Below, one piece after another: positions 6,193 through 59,834 of a stretch of DNA of 64,000 bases (position 1 is its first letter; the number at the start of each line of letters is the position of its first letter). A model generated the notes under the pieces. It worked only from the letters and a program-made list of their open reading frames with translations, was not told the origin of the DNA and did not search any database. The stretch comes from a virus. The translations under genes and the position numbers were made by a program. Location: IMG/VR virus record IMGVR_UViG_3300020174_000004, positions 1 through 64,000 of that record; one strand, given 5' to 3'.

Positions 6193-7104
6193 ATGAGAAT
6201 ATTCACACTAGCCATAGCAATGGCACTCGGCTTATTTTTTGCGATGCCAACACCAAGCGAAGCTAGACCAAATAGGTCTCATAGTAAAGTTGTAAAAAAG
6301 GATAAAAAGAAATTATATACATATCGTTGTAATGTATATAACAAAAAGAAGAAGTATCGCAAGTATCGTAAGTGGAAGAGATATTGCGATAGACTAAAGA
6401 AGATGGATTCGGTGCCAGCACAGACTGCTCCGAAACCAGAAAAGAAAGAAAATCAATATAGAGGTTTTTTTCAAAATTTCTTTAGTCAAAATGATAACTA
6501 TAATGAAGACAATAGTGCTGCTAGTTTCTTTGCTGCCGATAGAGCATTGATGGCATCTTTTAAAAAGAGAAATAAAGTTGTAGCAAAACCTACTAGAACT
6601 GCTCGTAAAAAGAAGGTTCGTAAGTTAAGACAGAGAACTCGTATTGTACTGTTTGAACAAAACAATAATGATGATTTTCCATTACCATTTCGTTCAATCT
6701 TTGAAAAGAATCATGTAGTAATTGCTCGTAAATATGAAGGTATGTCTGCTAGAAGAAATCGTCGTACACTTCGTACAGTTATGAAGATTGATCCTATGCG
6801 TATTCCTTGGTGTGCTGCTTTTGCTAATGCTATATTGAAGAAGGCAGGTCATGAAGGTACTGGGTCTCTAATGGCTCGTAGTTTTCTTTCTTATGGTAAG
6901 AAAACATGGAGACCTTCAAAAGGAGATATTGTAGTATTCAAGCGTGGTCGTTCTCGTAGATCAGGTCATGTTGGATTCTATATGGGCGAAACAGTTGTTC
7001 GTGGTGTTAGATATATACTAGTGTTGGGTGGTAATCAGCGTAAAGCTGTTAATGTGGCAATGTATCCAAAGAGAAAGGTTCTTGGATATCGTAGAATAGG
7101 ATAA
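6193..7104 (+). CDS. Exported NlpC/P60- or CHAP-like endolysin
   Basis: A 303-residue peptidoglycan hydrolase. Residues 1-24 form a Sec signal peptide (hydrophobic core, SEA cleavage motif), then a very basic linker rich in Lys/Arg and Tyr (about 30-165), then a TIGR02594-like catalytic domain with the nucleophile C207 (PWCAAF), H259 (SGHVGFY) and the polar third residue N281 (LGGNQ). It would cut a peptide or amide bond in murein. The signal peptide means export by the host Sec system, so lysis timing may not depend on a classical holin. The basic linker may tether the enzyme to the envelope. Strong ribosome site AAGAGGAC before the ATG. Confidence 0.85.
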   Translation: MRIFTLAIAMALGLFFAMPTPSEARPNRSHSKVVKKDKKKLYTYRCNVYNKKKKYRKYRKWKRYCDRLKKMDSVPAQTAPKPEKKENQYRGFFQNFFSQNDNYNEDNSAASFFAADRALMASFKKRNKVVAKPTRTARKKKVRKLRQRTRIVLFEQNNNDDFPLPFRSIFEKNHVVIARKYEGMSARRNRRTLRTVMKIDPMRIPWCAAFANAILKKAGHEGTGSLMARSFLSYGKKTWRPSKGDIVVFKRGRSRRSGHVGFYMGETVVRGVRYILVLGGNQRKAVNVAMYPKRKVLGYRRIG

Positions 7105-11930: not shown

Positions 11931-12683
11931 ATGCAGCAGACAAAAAGACTTACAAAAAGAGAAAGAAGAATATTGCGACAGCAAGGAGTCTTAGATGAAA
12001 ATAACAATGTTTCTTTTAAACTTAATTTTAGACTAAAAGATATATCACCATTAACTGCAAATCAACGTAAAACGTTTTCTGAATTTGAAAAAGGCAAAAA
12101 CATGTTATTGCATGGAATTGCCGGAACAGGAAAGAGCTTCATATCATTATATCTTTCGCTCAGAGAACTTATATCAGGTGATTCTCAATACGAAAAAATA
12201 TATATTGTTAGATCTGCTGTACCTACAAGAGACATGGGTTTTTTGCCAGGAAATAATAAAGAAAAATCAAAAGTATATGAAGCCCCATATTCTTCTATAT
12301 GTTCAGAACTATTTGGAAGAGGAGATGCTTATGAAGTACTTAAAACTAAAAACCTTATCGACTTTATTAGCACATCTTATATACGCGGGATCACTATTAA
12401 TGATTCTATCATTATTGTTGATGAAATAGCAAATCTTACTTTACATGAATTGGATTCTGTTATTACGCGTGTTGGTAAGAATTGTAGAATTATATTTTGT
12501 GGTGATTTTAGACAATCTGATTTTACCAAAGAACAAGAAAAGAATGGTCTAAAACAATTCATGCGAATTATCAATAAAATGAAATCATTTTCTTTTATTG
12601 ACTTTGATGTTGAAGATATTGTTCGATCTGACATGGTGAAGGAATATATTATTGTTAAAGATGAACTCCAAATCATCGCGTAA
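11931..12683 (+). CDS. phoH: PhoH-like P-loop ATPase
   Basis: A 250-residue ATPase with Walker A at residues 61-69 (HGIAGTGKS), Walker B at about 160-166 (IIIVDEIAN) and a later CGDFRQSD sensor motif, the arrangement of PhoH and the helicase-like proteins related to it. PhoH genes are frequent in marine phages, and their role (RNA metabolism or phosphate response) is unsettled. No Pho box was identified. Its 3' end overlaps the next gene. Confidence 0.9.
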   Translation: MQQTKRLTKRERRILRQQGVLDENNNVSFKLNFRLKDISPLTANQRKTFSEFEKGKNMLLHGIAGTGKSFISLYLSLRELISGDSQYEKIYIVRSAVPTRDMGFLPGNNKEKSKVYEAPYSSICSELFGRGDAYEVLKTKNLIDFISTSYIRGITINDSIIIVDEIANLTLHELDSVITRVGKNCRIIFCGDFRQSDFTKEQEKNGLKQFMRIINKMKSFSFIDFDVEDIVRSDMVKEYIIVKDELQIIA

Positions 12684-13329
12684 GAGTTTTGATTTTAAAC
12701 TCTTACCTAAGAATAAACTCGAGCGCCAAAATATAGATGGCGCTCGATATTATGTTTCTCCTGAAGGTGAAAAGTTTAAATCCGTAACTTCTATTTTAGG
12801 AGAAAAGATGGATAAAACATATCTTTATGAATGGAGAAAAAGAGTAGGAGAAGCAGAAGCAAATAGAATATCTACTCAAGCTGCTGTTCGTGGAACACAA
12901 TTTCATACTATTTGTGAAAAGTATTTACTTGGCGAAGATTATGTAAAAAAATCAATGCCAACTACTCTTGATATGTTTAAACAAATTCGTGGAATTTTAG
13001 ATGATAATATTGGAACCATATATGGTCTAGAACATTTCTTATATTCTCGTAGACTACAAGCGGCTGGTACTGCGGATCTAATATGTGAATATGATTCTTG
13101 GAATTCTGTTGTTGATTTTAAGACTTCTAGAAGAATAAAAAAAGAAAAAGATATTGAGAATTATTTTCTTCAAGCTACAGCATATGCTTTGATGGTTGAA
13201 GAAAGATATGGCTTCTATGTTCCTCAAATTGTTATCATTATGGCCATAGACCATGAAGAGCCTAGAGTGTTTGTAAAGCAGAAGCTACACTATTTGAAAA
13301 GAGTTAACGAAATATTTTGTTCGTTCTAA
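12661..13329 (+). CDS. PD-(D/E)XK exonuclease (RecB/Cas4-like)
   Basis: A 222-residue nuclease starting at ATG 12661, inside the end of phoH. Core motifs: RGTQFH with a motif-I-like histidine, GTADLI for the metal aspartate, VVDFKTSR for the D-x-K catalytic pair, then YFLQATAYALM with the Q-x-x-x-Y of the RecB-type nuclease. Such enzymes process DNA ends in recombination. In T4-like marine phages a similar protein sits in the replication region. Confidence 0.85.
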   Translation: MNSKSSRKSFDFKLLPKNKLERQNIDGARYYVSPEGEKFKSVTSILGEKMDKTYLYEWRKRVGEAEANRISTQAAVRGTQFHTICEKYLLGEDYVKKSMPTTLDMFKQIRGILDDNIGTIYGLEHFLYSRRLQAAGTADLICEYDSWNSVVDFKTSRRIKKEKDIENYFLQATAYALMVEERYGFYVPQIVIIMAIDHEEPRVFVKQKLHYLKRVNEIFCSF

Positions 13330-15524: not shown

Positions 15525-15710
15525 ATGGCTGGTGTAAAGACTCGTAAAGGTGATGTGGTAAAACAGAAAGTACGCATGTTGCATGGTAAAGTTGTAAAGC
15601 CTGTAGCATATGGTGTTAAGATGAAGATTGTTGGTGAAATTGATGGCGTTATGGTAGTTGACGCAAATGGCAAACCAATCCCCTTTAAGAGTATTGGTGA
15701 ACTGGTATAA
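15525..15710 (+). CDS. Small conserved beta-rich protein
   Basis: A 61-residue basic protein with alternating beta-type sequence (VVKPVAYGVKMKIVGEIDGVMVVDANG), possibly an SH3-like barrel. Preceded by AGGAGA. Its stop codon lies inside the TATAAATA box that precedes the tmRNA. Function unknown. Confidence 0.7.
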   Translation: MAGVKTRKGDVVKQKVRMLHGKVVKPVAYGVKMKIVGEIDGVMVVDANGKPIPFKSIGELV

Positions 15711-15713
15711 ATA
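15706..15713 (+). promoter_or_regulatory. T4-type late promoter box in front of the tmRNA
   Basis: Exact TATAAATA. A start about 12 bases downstream would fall near 15725, just before the first hairpin of the tmRNA acceptor piece. It suggests tmRNA production late in infection, though read-through from the upstream gene is also possible. Confidence 0.65.
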
Positions 15714-15729
15714 GTTTGTTATCGTTTTA

Positions 15730-15754
15730 TTATCAACGAAATGGCGGTTGATAA
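15730..15754 (+). other. Hairpin at the 5' side of the tmRNA acceptor piece
   Basis: Perfect eight-pair inverted repeat TTATCAAC (15730-15737) and GTTGATAA (15747-15754) with a nine-base loop. It could be part of the precursor or a processing signal of the acceptor RNA. Confidence 0.5.
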
Positions 15755-15911
15755 TTATATGGAAATATATAAAGTATTTGCGGACCCGGCTCTCGGATGC
15801 CGGCACCTCCACCAATAAATTTTTATGGGGGTGAAAGGGATCGACGTGGTATGTAATATATTTCAAGTCATTCGGGTGGAAACTCCGTTAACGTAACAAA
15901 AAACTATAGGT

Positions 15912-15953
15912 GCCAACGATAATGTTGCTCCTCGTTACGCTCTAGCAGCCTAG
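15912..15953 (+). other. tmRNA tag-peptide reading frame
   Basis: Thirteen codons ending in TAG that encode ANDNVAPRYALAA if GCC at 15912 is the resume codon. The ANDN start is typical of alphaproteobacterial tags, and the ALAA end is the signal read by ClpXP. The exact resume codon is inferred from this similarity. Confidence 0.88.
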
Positions 15954-16019
15954 CATGAGTTTTCGGTGGGTTTGACTTGGAAACAGAATAAACCCACCAC
16001 TTTATAAAGGATTAAGGAT

Positions 16020-16364
16020 GTGTACAAGATACTTACAGTCCTTCTACTTTTGTTTAGCACTGCGGCAATAGCAGAAGAAAAGAAAATAGAAGAACCAACA
16101 TGTGTTCCATTCGTATTTGCGTTTAACATGTTGAGAGAAGCTAAGTATGCTCCGTTCATGAGAAAACGGGGTGATACAAGAGTCGATGAAATAATATATT
16201 CCACAAAAACAAAAAGAGTGATTCATATCTGGTATTTTCAGGCAGACAAAACTGCAATGCCTATATCACTCTGTATTGGTAAAACATATGAAGGTTTCGA
16301 TATAACTTCTGATTTCATGATGGCTATTAAAGAGTTCATCATAAATCCAGAGGTGCCATTGTGA
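16020..16364 (+). CDS. Small exported protein, function unknown
   Basis: A 114-residue protein on a GTG start (the ATG two bases earlier is in a frame that stops after 17 codons), with GGAT/AAGG upstream. Residues 1-18 are a signal peptide (LTVLLLLFSTAAIA, cleavage after AIA). The mature part has two cysteines (TCVPF, LCIG) that could form a disulfide in the periplasm. First gene after the tmRNA, overlapping the next exported protein gene. No family recognised. Confidence 0.7.
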   Translation: MYKILTVLLLLFSTAAIAEEKKIEEPTCVPFVFAFNMLREAKYAPFMRKRGDTRVDEIIYSTKTKRVIHIWYFQADKTAMPISLCIGKTYEGFDITSDFMMAIKEFIINPEVPL

Positions 16365-49462: not shown

Positions 49463-50185
49463 ATGGAGAAATATGGTTTCATTTACATATGGTTTGATCG
49501 AAAACACAAGAGATATTATCTAGGTAGACATTGGGGTTATGAGAACGACTGTTATATTTGTTCTTCTACAAACATGAGAAACAATTATAATAACAGACCT
49601 TCAGACTTTAAAAGAAGAGTGATTAAAAGAATATACACAAACATGGATGATTTAGTCATTGAAGAACAAAGATGGCTTGATATGATTACTCCTGTAGAAT
49701 GTAATTCGAAATATTATAATAAATCTTTAAGTTCTTCTACGCCTTCTACTAGAGGTTATAAACATTCTACAGAAACTCGCCAAAAAATTGCAGCTGCCAA
49801 CAAAGGCAAATTTGTATCCGAAGAAACCAAACAAAAACTTCGCAAGGCTAACAAAAAACAATTTGAAGATCAGCAGCAAATTAATCTGAGAAAGAAAAAA
49901 TCTAAGGATTTATGGTCTGATCCTGAATATATTGAAAAACAAAATAAAGCTAGATCAAAGGTAGGATTTTATAAAGGCAACACCAAACCGCATTCGGAAA
50001 AAACTAAACAGCATTTGAGAAATATAAAGTTAGGGGTTCAAGTTCATAATGAAGAATCTAAGAAAAGAATATCAGAATTTTTTTCAAATCTTATTTGGAT
50101 TACCAATGGCAAAGACAATAAAAGAATAAATAGATTAGAATCAATACCAGATGGATACCGTCAAGGTAGAACTCGTAAGACATAA
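49463..50185 (+). CDS. GIY-YIG homing endonuclease with NUMOD3 repeats
   Basis: A 240-residue mobile nuclease. Residues 5-8 and 18-21 (GFIY ... YYLG) form the GIY-YIG pair, with the catalytic arginine in GRH. Four NUMOD3-like DNA-binding repeats follow (HSTETRQKIAAANKGK, SEETKQKLRKANK, HSEKTKQHLRNIKLG, NEESKKRISE), then a C-terminal WITNGKDNKRI...IPDGYRQGR module seen in phage homing enzymes. It is free-standing between fibre genes, not inside an intron. Expression seems tightly limited by the upstream hairpin. Confidence 0.9.
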   Translation: MEKYGFIYIWFDRKHKRYYLGRHWGYENDCYICSSTNMRNNYNNRPSDFKRRVIKRIYTNMDDLVIEEQRWLDMITPVECNSKYYNKSLSSSTPSTRGYKHSTETRQKIAAANKGKFVSEETKQKLRKANKKQFEDQQQINLRKKKSKDLWSDPEYIEKQNKARSKVGFYKGNTKPHSEKTKQHLRNIKLGVQVHNEESKKRISEFFSNLIWITNGKDNKRINRLESIPDGYRQGRTRKT

Positions 50186-58500: not shown

Positions 58501-59043
58501 ACTGAAACAGAATCAAATACATTATATATGAAAAGAACGGCTAATGATACTGTTACAGCAAATACACTATGGCAAGATAGTAAGCAAATTCAATTAGGAA
58601 CCGGCGGGGATTTAAAAATTTATCATGATGGAACAAATGCCGTTTTAAATAATGATACTGGTAGTTTTTTATTTTATGAGGTAACAGGCGGAAGTTATAT
58701 ATGGCATGTTGCAGGCGCTAATAAGTTACAACTTGATTCTTCCGGAAATTTAACAGCAGCTGGAAATATAACTGCTTATTCTGATGTTAGATTAAAGAAA
58801 GAAATAAAAACAATTGATAATGCATTAAATAAAGTAACAAGCCTTCGTGGTGTAAACTTTATTAAAGATGAAGAATATCAAATGGGTGTAATTGCACAAG
58901 AAGTTGAAGAAATTATTCCGGAAGTTATATTAACAAATAATGAAGGAATTAAAAGTGTTGCATATGGAAATATGGTTGGTCTTTTAATTGAAGCTATTAA
59001 AGAATTAAAAATGGAAATAGAAGAATTAAAAGGTAAAAAATAA
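55549..59043 (+). CDS. Long tail fibre with S74 intramolecular chaperone
   Basis: An 1164-residue fibre. N-terminal DKDFVVKNGLVVNTDLIVANTDSNRVGINTSSPDSTLTVSG attachment/collar; a shaft of repeated modules (TANVGGATTLRSTLDVTGATTLNNTLSAGNTSLANTNITG, three to four times); two copies of a YTGITGVGTISTGTWQGSQISTTYTQAK module near 520 and 690; then a collar and the chaperone with dyad S1078/K1083 (SDVRLK) and MGVIAQEVEEIIPEV. Auto-cleavage would release the last 87 residues. Probably the long receptor-binding fibre. Confidence 0.88.
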   Translation: MADKDFVVKNGLVVNTDLIVANTDSNRVGINTSSPDSTLTVSGTANVSGNVVFSDKVSVGNTISVGSNATISGHINVASTANVGGATTLRGSLTVNGATIVANTLSAGNTSLANTNITGYINTTSTANIGGATTLRGSLTVNGATIVANTISTGNNTITGFINVSSTANVGGATTLRSTLDVTGATTLNNTLSAGNTSLANTNITGYINTTSTANVGGATTLRSTLDVTGATTLNNTLSAGNTSLANTNITGFINASSTANIGGATTLRSTLDVTGATTLNNTLAVGNTSVTGFITATTNSTFSGDTTTVKGIRFSTDSSYTVGNTSHRPLKIWSDDIETENITITGFITGTIAPASSIIPTTNLSADLGSSEKWFDELFVGSITTNTFTVSDGGDGVSITSNTQSFKSNSSITAISIRANTTSSNTTLSGNLVTITSNTNVSVANLTVTNGTFISTNGSVTTTVNNSTIQIGGGATVNSTIFTGASNNSTYLNGQLASYYTNATNLSTGTVASARIAGSYTGITGVGTISTGTWQGSQISTTYTQAKITSISGGNGLTGTVTTSGSISVLANTGIVANGTGTYVNTAYIATINANNATYFNGQAASYYTGYSDTKAEAAYSNAVSYAGTIAGTAYSNAISYAGTIAGTAYSNAVSYAGTIAGTAYSNATTFSANASNLGNGTVPSGRINGSYTGITGVGTISTGTWQGSQISTTYTQAKVTSVSGGNGLTGTVTTSGSISVLANTGIVANGTGLYVNSSYIGTLSSNNATYFNGQAASYYTGYSDTKAATAYSNAISYATNASNISSGTLNAARLPYTINQNLGTSNAPTFDGLYLTGGLSLTGDITTYRSDAVTTGVIFLGNSGSNYLYYNGSYYDMPGAELYVNGYQVVKNTGTWGISVTGNAATATKWATARTLSLTGAVTGSASVDGSGNISLATIATSDPTLTLSGDASGSATFTNLGNATLSVTVADDSHTHDGRYYTETESNTLYMKRTANDTVTANTLWQDSKQIQLGTGGDLKIYHDGTNAVLNNDTGSFLFYEVTGGSYIWHVAGANKLQLDSSGNLTAAGNITAYSDVRLKKEIKTIDNALNKVTSLRGVNFIKDEEYQMGVIAQEVEEIIPEVILTNNEGIKSVAYGNMVGLLIEAIKELKMEIEELKGKK
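55790..56400 (+). repeat. Near-identical fibre shaft modules
   Basis: A cassette of about 117-120 bases (GGTGCTACTACTTTAAGAAG ... TTTAGCTAATACTAATAT) occurs four to five times, the last three almost identical. A second duplication pairs about 57090-57290 with about 57620-57820. Recent unequal recombination is likely. Confidence 0.8.
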
Positions 59044-59834
59044 TGGCAAATGAAGACGTAAATTCATCTGTTAATTATTGGAATGCAAATTATTCTGGTT
59101 ATGGCACTATGAGCAAGAATTTTTTGTCTATGCGTACAATTCTTAATAATAACTCTGCTTATTCTGCTTATGATCTACAAGGAATGTATAATGCAATATA
59201 TGCCTTTACACCACCAGTTGTTAAATGTTTTTCAAGAACATCAGCAGTTCTCATGTCTGATCTTTCATGGAAATGGATACACGAATTAGAAACTGGCGAT
59301 ATGATTTTTACATCAGATGGTCCTTCTGCTTTATCTCACTTACATATAACTAAACTTGGATTTAGAAGAATGTATGAGATGTATGATGGAAGTCTTTCAT
59401 TTTCTTCTGATCATTGCTTATGGGTTAGAAGAAATGAAGGTGATTATTTTTGGGTGATGGATAAAAATGATTTACAAACTTCTTGCTCCATTGCCAATAG
59501 TCCAGTTATTAACAATATTGATAATGCCTTTATTGGTTCTGTTGATAGAGAAGAACAATTTGCACATGTAACTGGATGGAAAACTAATAAACCGGTTCTT
59601 ACTGGAATAACTGCTCCCGATTATACTTTATACTCACCTGTTGTAGAAAATAAAGGTTTAATAGTTGTGAATGGTTATCTTGTAGATTCCGATTCAAACG
59701 AATCAACTAATAATTATAATTTTAATTGGGATGATATTATAAACAATGATATATCCAATTCAATGGATAGTTTACCAGAATTATTATCACAATATATCAA
59801 ATATAGGACAGAAAATCCAAACGAAATTCCATGA
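59043..59834 (+). CDS. Hint (intein/hedgehog-type) domain protein
   Basis: A 263-residue protein. After a 60-residue leader, C62 begins a Hint-like domain: KCFSRTSAVLMSDLSWKWIHELETGD, the block-B histidine H124 (SSDHCLWVRR), and a C-terminal strand GLIVVNGYLVDS near 205-216. There is no clear His-Asn plus nucleophile at the end and 47 residues follow, so it is not a full intein but resembles stand-alone Hint proteins. It starts in overlap with the long fibre stop, which suggests a fibre-linked role such as self-cleavage or cross-linking. Confidence 0.75.
   Translation: MANEDVNSSVNYWNANYSGYGTMSKNFLSMRTILNNNSAYSAYDLQGMYNAIYAFTPPVVKCFSRTSAVLMSDLSWKWIHELETGDMIFTSDGPSALSHLHITKLGFRRMYEMYDGSLSFSSDHCLWVRRNEGDYFWVMDKNDLQTSCSIANSPVINNIDNAFIGSVDREEQFAHVTGWKTNKPVLTGITAPDYTLYSPVVENKGLIVVNGYLVDSDSNESTNNYNFNWDDIINNDISNSMDSLPELLSQYIKYRTENPNEIP

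Follow-up and report, generated by a model that had tools for sequence, protein, structure and literature searches.

A circularly permuted two-piece tmRNA gene in a T4-like phage and the viral tmRNA lineage to which it appears to belong

The stretch of viral DNA analysed here, hereafter referred to as the window, comprises 64,000 nt (positions 1 to 64,000) of the 99,673-bp IMG/VR virus record IMGVR_UViG_3300020174_000004. A tmRNA gene with its parts in circularly permuted order is located in this window, which raises the questions of whether it encodes a working RNA, whether it was taken from a host or is maintained by phages, and what it may contribute during infection. The T4 core genes present include gp32 (PF08804), gp59 (PF08993/PF08994) and relatives of the baseplate wedge protein gp6. 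The baseplate wedge protein is nearest to those of Stenotrophomonas phage DLP_6, Sinorhizobium phages phiM12 and phiN3, Caulobacter phage Cr30, Pelagibacter phage HTVC008M and Melnitz, all at below 60% identity. Judged by its genes, the window phage is T4-like and without a close isolate. The same tmRNA gene and the same neighbouring proteins are, furthermore, found at 99-100% identity on an 11-kb contig.

Two covariance models match the gene end to end on the plus strand, each at approximately twice its cut-off (cmscan), namely tmRNA_permuted (RF04321; positions 15750-15953; 113 bits; cut-off: 47; E: 2.9e-21) and alpha_tmRNA (RF01849; positions 15681-15998; 95.3 bits; cut-off: 50; E: 1.1e-24). 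The latter search had been proposed in a first-pass annotation made from the letters alone, which assigned the gene to a T4-like phage and read it as a permuted two-piece tmRNA of alphaproteobacterial type. This reading is borne out by both models and by the T4 core genes, and every tmRNA part which it named was located by coordinate at its place. Its start at position 15726 is to be revised, as a start near 15719 is likelier if transcription begins at the TATAAATA box, with the pieces then predicted at 96 and 173 nt. ARAGORN reported no tmRNA in the window although the gene is present, and as such its silence is not evidence of absence. The features of the gene and its locus are as follows:

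11931..13329 (+): PhoH and exonuclease genes, marking the upstream side of the conserved locus
15703..15713 (+): predicted promoter element TGG-TATAAATA; T4-type late box at 15706-15713, also an extended sigma70 -10
15719-15999 (+): circularly permuted two-piece tmRNA gene (RF04321, RF01849, element-by-element coordinates)
15719..15814 (+): acceptor piece, ~96 nt, CCA encoded at 15812-15814 (RF04321/RF01849; 5' end predicted from the promoter box)
15730..15754 (+): acceptor-piece 5' hairpin, TTATCAAC/GTTGATAA (coordinates; the alpha_tmRNA model has a hairpin here)
15762..15781 (+): 5' strands of the interpiece helix, 9 + 3 + 3 bp, with partners at 15846-15864 (model match, coordinates)
15786..15803 (+): T-arm, 5-bp stem and atypical 8-nt loop TCTCGGAT (coordinates, comparison with phage copies)
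15804..15814 (+): acceptor 3' strand CACCTCC (15804-15810, with U70), then ACCA (15811-15814), the discriminator A and CCA
15815..15826 (+): intervening sequence (IVS) ATAAATTTTTAT, 12 nt, predicted to be lost from the mature RNA
15827..15999 (+): coding piece, ~173 nt, with predicted processing (model matches, coordinates)
15827-15833 (+): acceptor 5' strand GGGGGTG, start of the coding piece
15837-15846 (+): D-region GGGATCGACG, within the coding piece
15846-15864 (+): 3' strands of the interpiece helix, within the coding piece
15912..15953 (+): tag reading frame GCC...GCC TAG, peptide ANDNVAPRYALAA, with Ala resume codon, ALAA end and stop
15965..15998 (+): 3' hairpin GGTGGGTTT/AAACCCACC (arms 15965-15973/15990-15998), with conserved loop motif TTGGAAACAGAA
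17433..19674 (+): gp33-like, metallopeptidase-like, gp59 and gp32 genes, marking the downstream side of the conserved locus

The acceptor 3' strand with its CCA thus precedes the IVS, which is followed by the acceptor 5' strand and the tag, this being the permuted order. All seven acceptor pairs are formed, the single G-U among them being G3:U70, the alanine identity pair of tmRNA. The nine-pair segment of the interpiece helix joins GAAATATAT (15762-15770) to ATATATTTC (15856-15864), and when all 44 canonical pairs are enforced, the two-piece complex reaches -78.2 kcal/mol, as compared to an unconstrained minimum of -78.7 kcal/mol. When partners were swapped among copies, the interpiece helix proved weakly specific, with 24% of the natives beating 95% of the swaps. 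The eight-nucleotide T-loop belongs to neither common class.

A permuted tmRNA of this type had been considered little described in T4-like phages. However, a two-piece alpha-type tmRNA was already reported for the T4-like methylophage Melnitz by Buchholz et al. in 2022, in a study where 402 tmRNA phages with 133 unique structures were counted, 53 of which were suggested to be two-piece and 50 of these marine or aquatic (PMC9004378), while a 2025 tmRNA database holds 79 unique phage sequences (PMC11915505). Matches to RF04321 were further obtained in HTVC008M, Mosig, DLP_6 and RHph_I1_18, but not in Cr30, phiM12, P-SSM2 or Sf-CH8, while the permuted gene is present in more than 200 IMG/VR viral contigs. 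The window gene is therefore a further case of a group already known in marine T4-like phages. Melnitz, HTVC008M and Mosig share with it the permuted order, the alpha_tmRNA match, the ALAA tag end and the T4-like genome, and in Melnitz the gene likewise lies between the exonuclease gene and gp33-gp59-gp32. The window copy differs from these three in its weak -35, its tRNA-like domain and its tag, and its IVS is 12 nt in length as compared to 142 nt in Melnitz and 44 nt in Mosig. A glutamine riboswitch adjoining the Melnitz tmRNA (L001 6111-6159; 52.8 bits) was confirmed, and is absent from the window and its tmRNA locus. One-piece tmRNAs are known from mycobacteriophages such as Bxz1; these are likewise phage-borne and presumed to act in ribosome rescue, but, unlike the window copy, consist of one molecule and are not permuted.

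For comparison, viral loci (L numbers) were gathered in three ways, using the tag pattern, the phrog_11903 protein encoded nearby or the motif of the 3' loop, while host copies were obtained by a pattern scan and as a class-level sample found by covariance model alone. The phrog_11903 protein and a DUF932 protein are also among the upstream neighbours in the window, where the gp33-like assignment is based on similarity to a Melnitz gene in the same place. A canonical order, in which PhoH/exonuclease precede and gp33/gp59/gp32 follow the tmRNA on one strand, is found in 167 of the 177 viral loci with T4 genes within reach (228 loci parsed), where loci that include one side only were also counted. 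In 22/30 records with the neighbouring phrog_11903 gene a tmRNA scores above the cut-off, and four further such records contain complete tmRNA genes with a 520-nt IVS. The latter had been taken for decayed copies at 28 bits, a reading which was rejected as the low score is due to the length of the IVS.

Nearly all of the parsed phage copies have a fully paired acceptor stem (7/7), many compensated variants being among them; this rate is conditional on the second parser, which demanded at least six acceptor pairs and was passed by 108/119 tag-pattern loci. The G3:U70 pair was not among the demands of this parser, and is retained in 107/108, 26/26 and 93/94 of the parsed phage copies. Similarly, the 3' hairpin stem is at least 6 bp in length in 152/159 phage copies, formed by 77 distinct stems. 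A short-spaced form of the 3' end was considered as a phage-specific compact form and rejected, as many alphaproteobacteria in the unbiased host sample show the same short spacing. Short-spaced phage and alphaproteobacterial copies differ in the loop letters alone, and a scan of bacterial genomes for the phage-like short spacing together with the TTGGAAACAGAA loop gave 0 matches. Separately, one bacterial genome was observed to carry two genes for permuted tmRNAs (L530; G131:C5:288354-289012), the second of which looks phage-like (acceptor GGGCCGG; tag ANDNSPVAMAA; short 3' spacing).

The promoter region is likewise shared among the phages. T4 late promoters consist of an 8-bp TATA box located approximately one turn before the start (PMC2988020), with the consensus TATAAATA (PMC5587285). 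This motif lies upstream of the acceptor strand in 111 of 149 distinct phage copies, as compared to ~1/149 control windows and 0/85 hosts, and NATAAATA is found upstream in 130/160 phage copies. The distance from TATAAATA to the acceptor strand has a median of 65 nt and is nearly always 61-71 nt, with the window an outlier at 98 nt. Across the window the motif is not enriched (13 found, 15.75 expected), and its support is thus comparative. A -35 with at least a 5/6 match to TTGACA is located 15-19 nt upstream in 76% of the 129 boxed phage copies (control: 2.6%), the spacing being 17 nt in nearly all of the best copies shown. The composite TTGACA-N17-TATAAATA is common to most of the phage permuted tmRNA genes (e.g. 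L188, L303 and L260), and an initial reading of the promoter as purely late was revised on its account. As TATAAATA is both the T4 late consensus and a sigma70 -10 form, it can be read as both, and the composite promoter is apparently built for the host sigma70 and the phage late polymerase at once. Late reading of the box would be by the gp55/gp33/gp45 system. The composite reading covers the late motif as well as the description of the Melnitz tmRNA promoter as early, which was derived from a sigma70 predictor (Buchholz et al., PMC9004378). In the window, the TGG-TATAAATA box is retained and the -35 matches at 4/6 positions only, and mainly late expression would thus be expected there.

What the sequence itself shows is the gene with its structure, its conservation, its locus and a promoter motif, and with good confidence we read these as a working two-piece tmRNA gene of an old, virus-maintained permuted lineage in T4-like phages. 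This reading draws on the full-length model matches, the formation of all canonical pairs and the closeness of the enforced fold to the minimum (within 0.5 kcal/mol), as well as on the retention of G3:U70, the compensated acceptor stems and the 77 different 3' stems, the co-occurrence with phrog_11903, the fixed locus and the phage-specific promoter. It is further supported by the near-invariance of the tag and 3' hairpin between the window and its relatives L123 and L217. The tag is identical in 41/42 nt and the 3' hairpin in 44-45/45 nt, while a neighbouring protein shares 75-78% identity with those of the relatives. Counted against it are the T-loop, the missing -35, the lack of SmpB in the record and the weakly specific helix.

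A rival reading is that the window copy is decaying or weakened, heading for loss and no longer charged or used. The 8-nt T-loop occurs in no other copy, the -35 is weak and the IVS is very short at 12 nt, as compared to 78 and 87 nt in close relatives. However, the seven acceptor pairs, five T-stem pairs, G3:U70, CCA, tag frame and 3' hairpin are all intact, the window score lies inside the range of the other phage copies and the near-identical gene on the 11-kb contig retains its neighbours, so that decay appears improbable. In the acceptor piece and at the beginning of the coding piece, identity to L123 and L217 falls to ~50-60%, and the simplest reading of this mosaic is that a tRNA-like domain was exchanged between phages; fast change of the tRNA-like domain alone is the alternative.

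For the transcription, processing, charging, partners, protease and benefit of a working tmRNA in this phage, we infer the following course. Transcription would start near 15719 from the TATAAATA box, by the phage-modified late polymerase and possibly by host sigma70 too. Cleavage by host tRNA-processing enzymes at the CCA end and directly before GGGGGTG would release the 12-nt IVS, which is discarded, and leave two pieces that remain associated through the acceptor stem and the interpiece helix (9+3+3 bp). The tmRNA may then be charged by host AlaRS via G3:U70, whereupon host SmpB and EF-Tu would deliver it to stalled ribosomes and translation would resume at GCC. No SmpB gene is found in the 99.7-kb record, itself a fragment, and host SmpB would therefore be needed. 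The ANDNVAPRYALAA tag would direct the product to ClpXP-type proteases, and the benefit to the phage may be that ribosomes are kept free while mRNAs are cut during infection. Control of ribosome rescue by the phage via its own tmRNA, as suggested in the first-pass annotation, would be plausible.

The same RNA might instead act as a decoy or inhibitor of host trans-translation, in the manner of mycobacteriophage DS6A, whose tmRNA-like RNA has no tag and inhibits tmRNA in E. coli (PMC11915505), and a phage SmpB would be unnecessary for this role. A decoy has no need of a tag, however, while the tag frame here is complete, ends in ALAA and a stop, and is strongly conserved, which makes inhibition a very unlikely function of the window RNA.

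The window gene resembles the alphaproteobacterial tmRNAs of RF01849 in its gene order, G3:U70 acceptor stem, ANDN-type tag and 3' hairpin with AACAGAA loop. The phage copies form separate clusters from these, with the TATAAATA promoter and an on average longer IVS, and the group of the window has GGAAACAGAA where the alphaproteobacterial hosts have GCAACAGAA. On a 255-sequence tree, phage and host labels change three times, as compared to 72.9 changes expected by shuffling; in a subset not chosen by tmRNA sequence a single change is observed (18.2 expected), and four changes are observed in the same type of subset under purine/pyrimidine coding (18.3 expected). These trees contain 72-87 host copies and are based on a short alignment (223-232 columns) with AT-rich phages, such that the separation of labels is robust and the deep branches are unresolved. 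The permuted tmRNAs of T4-like phages thus form their own, apparently virus-maintained lineage apart from the host copies. Recent capture of a host ssrA, and with it the earlier suggestion that the gene marks the host group, is largely refuted by this separation, by the same locus in many T4-like phages and by the phage-specific promoter, despite the resemblance to alphaproteobacterial tmRNA and the mostly proteobacterial hosts, several of them alphaproteobacteria, of the closest isolates. Melnitz carries an alpha-type tmRNA and infects a gammaproteobacterial host (PMC9004378), which, together with the separate clustering, argues that the gene does not point to the host.

In the phages the IVS ranges from ~6 to >500 nt, with medians of ~78-85 nt as compared to 31 nt in the host class sample, and ends in TGAT in 121/150 copies. 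A closing helix of at least 6 bp is formed in 130/150 phage copies, as compared to 41/132 when the halves are swapped between phages. HNH homing-endonuclease ORFs are located inside at least five distinct IVSs, in tmRNA genes that are intact apart from them (L059, L271, L280, L293 and the L134 group, comprising L134, L135, L136 and L149, and also L532-L536), and a LAGLIDADG ORF inside that of L306, the endonuclease-bearing IVSs being ~480-520 nt in size. Three of the HNH ORFs were tested and match Pfam HNH at 21.0-23.1 bits (cut-off: 21.4) and the homing endonuclease family phrog_655 (E: ~2e-11 to 7e-14). Each of the five HNH ORFs has a hairpin before its start codon that contains a TAAATA motif, with a Shine-Dalgarno sequence located in the 3' arm of this hairpin or adjoining it. 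A search with the L134 protein identified 28 relatives, six of which lie in the IVS of a tmRNA gene (L539 and five of a single type) and one adjacent to it (L538), the remainder being elsewhere or cut. Filled and empty IVSs of close relatives look unrelated except for the closing helix, which fits whole-cassette exchange better than simple insertion. The IVS calls for L017/L099/L085, L090, L115, L044 and L297 are doubtful or parsing errors and were left uncounted.

Homing endonucleases such as I-TevI lie inside T4 introns, and the T4 intron endonuclease ORFs are preceded by a hairpin with the ribosome-binding site and a late-promoter motif within. The HNH ORFs of the IVSs resemble these in the late-type motif in a hairpin before the start codon. 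LAGLIDADG genes occur in group I introns of tmRNA genes, while a tRNA-Ala gene and a repetitive element have been reported within permuted tmRNA IVSs (PMC11915505). As in both types of intron, the endonuclease ORF is placed in a stretch that is removed from a functional RNA. In contrast to the introns, the stretch is here the IVS of a permuted tmRNA, which would be removed by tRNA-type processing rather than splicing, and such ORFs are observed in the relatives and not in the window copy. The IVS, cut out by tRNA-processing enzymes, would thus act as an intron without splicing. No earlier report of endonuclease ORFs in a permuted tmRNA IVS was found in the open-licence literature, and these would represent a new type of refuge for mobile genes, in which tRNA maturation replaces splicing. 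It seems likely that the IVS serves as a gene dock in a long-lived viral tmRNA lineage, with the window, its tRNA-like domain exchanged, representing the empty, minimal-IVS state. Through the comparison, hitherto scattered reports become a testable picture of a common, positionally fixed and separately evolving gene of T4-like phages, which allows for a direct test of whether, and when, phages need their own ribosome rescue.

Other ORFs were also observed in the IVSs. A family of membrane-type ORFs of 38-45 aa is present in the IVSs of 13 loci (L013, L034, L035, L038, L043, L052, L054, L061, L084, L100, L101, L110 and L300), one of which was tested and has no Pfam or PHROGs match. An ORF is also found in the IVS of Melnitz (L001 5797-5973). 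By eye, the L008 IVS ORF is similar to the gene that immediately precedes the tmRNA in Melnitz (L001 5493-5693), and the secreted-type L077 IVS ORF resembles that at window positions 16020-16364, such that these two IVSs hold genes lying beside the tmRNA in other phages.

Elsewhere in the window, an ORF at 59043-59834 resembles a Hint (intein/hedgehog-type) domain protein by eye, without a Pfam match at E 0.01. The ORF at 49463-50185, located amid the tail-fibre genes, contains a NUMOD3 motif (33.4 bits) and probably encodes a homing endonuclease. A CHAP-domain protein with a signal-like start, encoded at 6193-7104, is a candidate lysin, and similar ORFs are found near some other phage tmRNAs.
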